DNA of 47,119 nt, taken from Candidatus Bathyarchaeota archaeon (GTDB lineage Archaea; Thermoproteota; Bathyarchaeia; Bathyarchaeales; SOJC01). Below, piece after piece: positions 6,733 through 47,119 of the stretch; the first letter of the stretch is position 1; each line of letters begins with the position of its first letter. Location of the stretch: the NCBI GenBank assembly GCA_020354575.1, contig CP070649.1:1699174-1746292 (forward strand), written 5' to 3'. Made by a program: the position numbers and the translations under genes. The notes below the pieces were generated by a model. The model was not told the DNA's origin and did no database searches. It worked only from the letters and a program-made list of their open reading frames with translations.

Positions 6733-6866
6733 GTGACGAGTGGAAGGGGAGAGAGGAAATTAATGGAGGGAGGTGATATAACTCCTACACGTAATTACGT
6801 GTACTCTTCCACTCGTTATTTTAGAATAATAAAAAGGTCTACCTATATTTCTTATTATCAAATGAG
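6733..6866 (+). repeat. Structured intergenic element, copy A
   Basis: An 11-bp stem, ACGAGTGGAAG at 6736-6746 with CTTCCACTCGT at 6806-6816, encloses a purine-rich strand with GGGAGAGAGGAA and a perfect inner hairpin at 6787-6802 (ACACGT, AATT, ACGTGT). Downstream come CTACCTATATT (6839-6849) and, after five bases, TTATCAAATGA (6855-6865). The same order of parts, with the same five-base gap between the last two, recurs at 33983-34094. It fills the gap before the cohesin-like gene. It could be a non-coding RNA, a long 5' leader or a small mobile element. Confidence 0.6.
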
Positions 6867-7118
6867 AAACTGAATCACTATTAAGTCGCAATTTCTAAAA
6901 AAAATATGTTATAATTGATACAATTCTGTACGAATAAGTGCTGCATATTCTTTTCCATCCGATTTAACCGTTTTTACGCTACATCGAGTTCATTTTTGAC
7001 CCTTCGAACTTAGAGTGGCAAGCCAATGAGTGAGAGATTTTATGCGTGGAAATATGAATAAATGATGCTCTGAAAGAGAAATTTCCTAGGTAACAATAGT
7101 AGAGAATAATTCCAGAAT

Positions 7119-33715: not shown

Positions 33716-33982
33716 TGAGCGCATGAATGCATGGATTCGGGCTTTACAGGCAAAGGATCATTGCATTTAATTGAAGCAGAAACCTCACAATCTCTGGCTA
33801 GTTGGGAAAACCTTAGGGGTCTCTATGCAAGAATGCATTTTGTTAATGTTCAATGCGAAGATGAACCTGCTTCATTCTGACCTCTTCGCCTCCTTAAAAT
33901 AAGATATGCAAACACAATGATGCAAGAAGATACGATAGTTATGTTGAGTGCATAGTTCCATGCACGCATGCAATTATTTGAA
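33716..33982. other. Intergenic stretch with short motifs
   Basis: No gene is supported. A 49-codon frame at 33731-33880 exists but has no ribosome site or recognised motif. The stretch holds ATGCATG at 33728-33734 and GCATGCAATT at 33966-33975, and directly precedes element B. Confidence 0.35.
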
Positions 33983-34094
33983 GGTGAGTGGGAGGAGAGA
34001 GAGGAAGTGAATTACTTCCAATCTGTAGAAACTTTCTACACACTCACCATAATAATTGTGTGTTGCCCTACCTATATTGATTCTTATCAAATGA
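33983..34094 (+). repeat. Structured intergenic element, copy B
   Basis: The outer stem is GGTGAGTG (33983-33990) with CACTCACC (34041-34048). Within it are two perfect hairpins, GGAAGT/ACTTCC at 34003-34019 and TGTAGAAA/TTTCTACA at 34024-34040, making a three-way junction. The unpaired 5' strand is purine rich (GGAGGAGAGAGA). Downstream CTACCTATATT (34068-34078) and TTATCAAATGA (34084-34094) match copy A exactly, with the same five-base gap. The inner hairpins differ in sequence from copy A while pairing is kept, which suggests a conserved fold. Confidence 0.6.
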
Positions 34095-34188
34095 AGCGCC
34101 TGTCATCCAGATTTAAGATAAATTTCTTAGTGCTTCAACATAATTAATGCATTTTCCGATGAAATCTATGAATATATGCGAACCCTAT

Positions 34189-46404: not shown

Positions 46405-47119
46405 CACGCCAAAAAAGCCCGATATGCAACGCCGTCTGGTGAATGACCAGGCTTGAGCGCTGAAGAAGGGCGCGGCAAGCAGCGATATGCCTCGGGTAAG
46501 CGCACGCAGCTGTAGAACCGAGGATGCCCCAATGGGACTTCTCGTTACGGTTCCTTAGGGAATCGTGACACTCCAGCAATGGAGAGGGAACCCCCTGAAC
46601 TGAAGCATCATAGTAGGGGGAGGAAAAGAAACTAACTAGGATTCCCCTAGTAGCGGCGAGCGAAACGGGAAAAGTCCAAACCGAATCTTGAAAGGAAACT
46701 TTCAAGAGATGTAGGGTTAAGGGTCCGGCTATATCTTCACTAGCTAAACTGAAGTGGTCTGGAACGACCTGCTATAGAGGGTGAAAGCCCCGTAAGTGTA
46801 AACTGGAAAGAAAAAGGCTGGAATCCCAGAGTACCATACCCAGGTTTGGGTGTGGAAAATTGGGAGTCACCAACTTCCAAGACTAAACACGTCTCAAGAC
46901 CGATAGCGCACTAGTACGGTGACAGAAAGTTGAAAAGTATCCCGGAAGGGAGCTGAAAAGAGTCTGAAACCAGATGGTTAAAGACGTATGCAGCCTGGAA
47001 GGATAGATCCCATTCGAAGGAAACCGTAGTGATACGGCAGTACGGGAATGGGGGACTAGGGTTGCATGTTCCGTCTAGAAACACGGGCCGGGGAGTTCAT
47101 GGCTATGGCAAGCTTAAAG
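46405..47119 (+). rRNA. 23S ribosomal RNA, 5' part (runs off the window)
   Basis: The 5' third of an archaeal large-subunit rRNA. Recognisable parts are GAAGAAGGGCG, AGCAGCGATATGCC, TAGTAGCGGCGAGCGAAACG, GTGAAAAGTATCCCGG in variant form (GTTGAAAAGTATCCCGGAAG) and GGCCGGGGAGTTCATGG near the end. The exact mature start is uncertain by about 20 bases. It is cut by the window end. An opposite-strand open frame (46394-46705) is a shadow. No 16S gene precedes it. Confidence 0.95.

Follow-up and report, generated by a model that had tools for sequence, protein, structure and literature searches.

The window analysed here, a stretch of 47,119 nucleotides from the genome of a Candidatus Bathyarchaeota archaeon, contains two sites (copies A and B) that are probably two genes of a previously uncatalogued small-RNA family, transcribed from the minus strand. 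Sequence comparison supports the family, its fold, the pairing changes and a fixed promoter geometry. The reading that we consider the most plausible is a multi-copy, jointly regulated family of sRNAs that pair with Shine-Dalgarno regions, similar to the streptococcal csRNAs, for which transcription, start and end points, mRNA pairing and the regulator are all predictions.

On this reading, each site would hold a small-RNA gene that stands by itself and is encoded on the minus strand. Three elements would form its promoter: box 2 (TGTATCATATATGCA) around -105, box 1 (TTTGATAACAA) around -45 and a TATA box around -32. Transcription would probably start at the foot of the closing stem, P1, to give an RNA of 64-82 nt. 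P1 and a 5' hairpin would keep this RNA closed and display a C/U-rich single strand, which may block the start of translation by pairing with target mRNAs at their purine-rich ribosome-binding sites. With one to three copies per genome and common promoter boxes, one regulator could switch them all.

Copies A (positions 6734-6866) and B (33983-34096) have in common an outer stem, the purine strand GAGAGAGGAA and a block, CTACCTATATT-N5-TTATCAAATGA, that is identical in both except within N5, while the sequences of their inner hairpins are not the same. The initial annotation had listed these features, and all of them are present at both sites. When folding was compared with dinucleotide shuffles, z was -3.6 for A and -2.1 for B. 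The resemblance between the two copies is real and beyond chance.

The annotation had also proposed an undescribed ncRNA family selected for its fold, and this is borne out: there are about 22 copies (models R1 and R2), in which pairing is kept despite sequence change, and no match to Rfam. The block pattern, run with up to three mismatches on 13 genomes of the same Bathyarchaeia family, gave four further sites, each with the same upstream fold as A and B. Model R1, built from five copies with B left out, recovers B at E 8.8e-5 per genome and, in the loci retrieved, finds 22 copies with E<0.01. In related genomes, where the annotation had suggested a model search, it recovers many copies on which it was not trained, with a top match of E 5e-11. 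The longer model R2, which has B in its training set, matches B at E 2.8e-19. Model R3 covers the RNA only and was built on the minus strand from six other genomic copies that include neither A nor B; it matches A on the minus strand (E 4.6e-7 in the window, 1.8e-5 genome-wide) and B, likewise on the minus strand, with E 0.022 for the window. The genome that holds A and B has a third copy (G000:C1:1548657-1548823), whose RNA is nearly the same as that of B.

Copies are found in 11 of the 13 genomes and nine of the ten genera of this Bathyarchaeia family. When 257 genomes of the class were searched with R2, none of the 244 outside the family gave a match at E<0.05, and every confident copy falls within this one family of Candidatus Bathyarchaeota. 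Pattern matches outside Bathyarchaeota records in scans of viral and genome contigs were rejected as chance. Many marine viral contigs (L050-L063, L065 and L068) carry one and the same 31-base, 22.6-bit match to the block pattern but lack all other parts of the element, and this match is put down to chance. Among the covariance models of 4227 Rfam families, rRNA alone reached the gathering score, and the other matches were weak, to unrelated families and far under their cut-offs. The genome has a separate RNase P RNA (206 bits), which argues against that identity, and copies read by eye had neither the ACA box that H/ACA guide RNAs carry close to the 3' end nor the terminal C and D boxes of C/D guide RNAs.

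In the predicted fold of the minus-strand RNA, P1 and the 5' hairpin leave a C/U-rich strand exposed, whose last letters are UCUCCC; a second hairpin on the 5' side of this strand is optional (Table 1). In the predicted folds, the C/U-rich strand, which commonly takes the form CUUCA..UUCCU(U)AUCUCCC, is mostly or wholly unpaired in nearly all copies. In a model-fitted alignment, for which the counts lean towards the model, pairing is kept in P1a in 124 of 126 cells, where GC/AU, CG/UA and AU/UA exchanges occur, and in P3 in 89 of 93, where the exchanges are GC/CG and UA/CG. The plainest case of kept pairing is copy L106, in which both hairpins are made of different letters. T-runs are not consistent past the RNA, and whichever strand is read, terminator T-runs are limited to part of the copies. 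CATGCACGCATG stands directly past the 3' end of the RNA both in copy B (33960-33985 of the window) and in the flank of L023; similar alternating stretches are also seen there in several other copies.

Table 1. Features of copies A and B and of the small-protein genes with the box pair. The RNAs, their parts and the promoter boxes are predicted.
Feature	Position	Strand	Basis or remark
Copy A small RNA, 81 nt, P1 to P1'	6736..6816	-	R3 minus match and minus-strand fold
Copy A P1 5' strand	6816-6806	-	R3 match, minus-strand fold
Copy A 5' hairpin	6803-6786	-	R3 match, minus-strand fold
Copy A C/U-rich strand	about 6785-6747	-	R3 match, minus-strand fold
Copy A AUCACCUCC, nine letters as in the 16S rRNA 3' tail (anti-Shine-Dalgarno)	6769..6777	-	shuffle p 0.008
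Copy A P1 3' strand	6746-6736	-	R3 match, minus-strand fold
Copy A TATA box AATATAGG	6842..6849	-	starts -33 from RNA 5' end
Copy A box 1 TTTGATAATAA	6852..6862	-	starts -46
Copy A box 2 TGTATCAATTATAAC (family consensus TGTATCATATATGCA)	6908..6922	-	starts -106
Copy B small RNA, 64 nt, P1, hairpins and C/U-rich strand	33984..34047	-	R3, R2, minus-strand fold
Copy B 5' hairpin UGUAGAA/UUCUACA	within 33984..34047	-	fold
Copy B second hairpin GGAAGU/ACUUCC	within 33984..34047	-	fold
Copy B TATA box AATATAGG	34071..34078	-	starts -31
Copy B box 1 TTTGATAAGAA	34081..34091	-	starts -44
Copy B box 2 TGCATTAATTATGTT	34137..34151	-	starts -104
Small-protein gene L139	G000:C1:327480-327713	-	
Small-protein gene L147	G000:C1:1087827-1087934	+	
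Small-protein gene L138	G001:C1:759003-759332	+	

The 3' tail of the 16S rRNA in this genome reads CGGATCACCTCCT (at L166). Exact matches to this anti-Shine-Dalgarno tail are found in only a few copies, with 11 letters in L021 (L097) and nine in A and L025; the match is not family-wide, the mean being 5.95 letters against 5.10 in shuffles. CAU is present in some copies only. Genes in the window have start regions with Shine-Dalgarno-like sites when the best start codon is chosen for each gene, a choice for which the values are uncorrected, and the RNAs pair better with these start regions than with gene interiors, a preference shared by any C/U-rich strand. This weakly suggests mRNA start regions as the targets of the C/U-rich strand. 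Because of the unpaired UCUCCC end, the 16S-tail matches, the Shine-Dalgarno sites and the start-region preference, the likeliest function appears to be trans control of translation initiation, which has also been proposed for the streptococcal csRNAs. The mRNA of a small protein described below was considered as a specific target and rejected, since its rank among the window start regions was inconsistent.

A minus-strand RNA might also be real and act on protein, as a scaffold or decoy whose P1 and C/U-rich strand bind an RNA-binding protein without any mRNA pairing. Conservation is highest in P1 and the UCUCCC strand, and in several copy pairs the RNA is more alike than the promoter (0.94 against 0.65 for B and the third copy), both of which agree with such a role, as does the scarcity of exact anti-Shine-Dalgarno matches. 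However, neighbouring genes vary and no gene for a partner protein adjoins the copies, and we regard this explanation as unlikely, though deserving of consideration.

The initial annotation had placed the element on the plus strand with the shared block inside the RNA. The RNA strand is probably the minus strand, on which the block is better read as an archaeal-type promoter that is not part of the fold. Both boxes nearest the RNA keep a constant distance from P1, with a spread of no more than three positions: in 21 of 22 copies the TATA box starts between -31 and -33, and box 1 (TTTGATAACAA) starts between -44 and -46 in every copy. Box 2 (TGTATCATATATGCA), which lies beyond the stretch originally annotated and 49-51 bases from the block TCA in most copies, starts between -103 and -106 in 19 of 22, weakly in some of these. 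The spacers between the boxes diverge and are barely conserved in their letters, but their lengths are held. This geometry suggests that the RNA is a separate transcript.

A plus-strand RNA that includes the purine strand and the block would accord with the ability of the plus strand to fold and with its larger number of wobble pairs in a long purine/pyrimidine register. Nevertheless, no comparable conserved promoter lies upstream of P1 on the plus strand, the 3' part, from P1 outward through both boxes, has no fold (mean z -0.3), and TATA-like boxes at fixed spacing fit transcription of the minus strand. Folding z is lower on the minus strand in 16 of 17 cases; the P1 domain has a mean z of -5.0 on the minus and -3.5 on the plus strand, with less weight on the values of six copies in which the domain was truncated. 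At copy A, R3 scores 31.8 bits on the minus against 15.2 on the plus strand, R3 itself being built on the minus strand. Wobble G-U pairs, 13 on the minus against six on the plus strand (six against none in P3), are modest strand evidence; a count with unconstrained helices suffers from purine-tract bias and was dropped for the strand call. The plus-strand model is improbable. Other readings of the block were also discarded: an open frame runs through it in one copy (L013), but stops in the shared frames in most copies exclude a common protein, and neither a terminal hairpin at TTATCAAATGAG nor a palindrome hairpin keeps its pairing among copies, in a 3' part without fold.

The annotation's other suggestion, a small non-autonomous mobile element, or a decayed transposon end that forms hairpins by chance, would explain why copies occur at many different loci, and why B and the third copy of this genome have nearly identical RNAs in diverged flanks; L023/L105 likewise resembles L016/L096. 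But there are only one to three copies per genome, and the flanks, inspected for target-site duplications as the annotation had advised, have longest repeats of 2-6, which is chance level (expected mean 4.0); the target-site duplications of a MITE-like element were not found at the copies. The gene neighbourhoods of five copy pairs match between genomes, a sign of vertical inheritance, and together with the presence in nine of ten genera and the pairing kept while sequence changes, this makes a mobile element very improbable. Least probable of all is a cis-acting leader or riboswitch of an adjoining gene, which would be suggested by the position of copies 230-272 nt upstream of a methylmalonyl-CoA mutase operon in genomes G003 and G002, but the minus-strand RNA heads away from that operon, other loci have different neighbours with no constant downstream gene, and copy A is convergent with a HAD gene. 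In the genome of the window, about 1.3 Mb separate the 16S 3' end (L166:1379-1502) from the 23S rRNA gene with which the window closes (46415-47119), so the rRNA genes appear to be unlinked.

The pair of box 1 and box 2, at a spacing of 60 or 61 bp, is also found upstream of three small-protein genes, of which the window's genome has two and G001 the third; at these genes box 2, not box 1, adjoins the TATA box. The proteins form a lineage-specific family of about 100 residues with the motif VLKGEEAI..LN.YI.EL and no Pfam match. The small-protein genes, three of which carry the pair, have a common conserved leader, AGAAGTCTACTTTTATTCTAGAAAA..TTCTATAT. The common box pair suggests that the sRNA and small-protein genes are under a common regulator. 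A further, speculative and rather doubtful step would be a Bathyarchaeia-specific network in which one regulator acts on the boxes at their fixed 60-bp spacing and drives both the small protein and translation-repressing sRNAs that mimic the anti-Shine-Dalgarno sequence, with the module used in opposite orientations.

Bathyarchaeia are a large, mostly uncultured archaeal class, and among the open-access papers that we searched, none dealt with their small RNAs. Metatranscriptomes can be used to check the family's promoter boxes, its candidate pairing strand and the start predicted for the RNA, and the common box pair provides a handle on an unknown regulator. If true, the family would add an archaeal example of multi-copy sRNAs under joint control.

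The small RNAs sRNA162 of Methanosarcina mazei (PMC3510493) and the haloarchaeal sRNA132 (PMC6560208) are archaeal sRNAs that act on mRNAs. The bathyarchaeal RNAs share the archaeal origin and may act on mRNAs, and sequence relation was compared through Rfam. To our knowledge, neither sRNA162 nor sRNA132 forms a family of several copies that have a promoter module in common. C-rich bacterial sRNAs, such as IsrR of Staphylococcus and RoxS of Bacillus, use an unpaired C-rich strand as their mRNA-pairing site. The bathyarchaeal RNAs have a similar candidate site, whereas IsrR and RoxS are bacterial and differ in fold and control.

The closest parallel that we see is with the csRNAs of the CiaRH regulon in Streptococcus, whose unpaired region is a proposed pairing site for the start codon and Shine-Dalgarno sequence (PMC3091779). 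The CiaR direct repeat of csRNA promoters, TTTAAG-N5-TTTAAG (PMC3091779), was not found in the promoters of the family, which have TTTGATAACAA and TGTATCATATATGCA instead. The bathyarchaeal RNAs also differ in being archaeal, unrelated in sequence and predicted from DNA sequence, and their candidate pairing strand lies inside a long closing stem, while that of the csRNAs lies between two stem-loops. In both, several related sRNAs per genome share one type of regulator site, which is putative in the bathyarchaeal family, and stem-loops frame a candidate Shine-Dalgarno-pairing region, which in the bathyarchaeal RNAs is predicted to be mostly unpaired.
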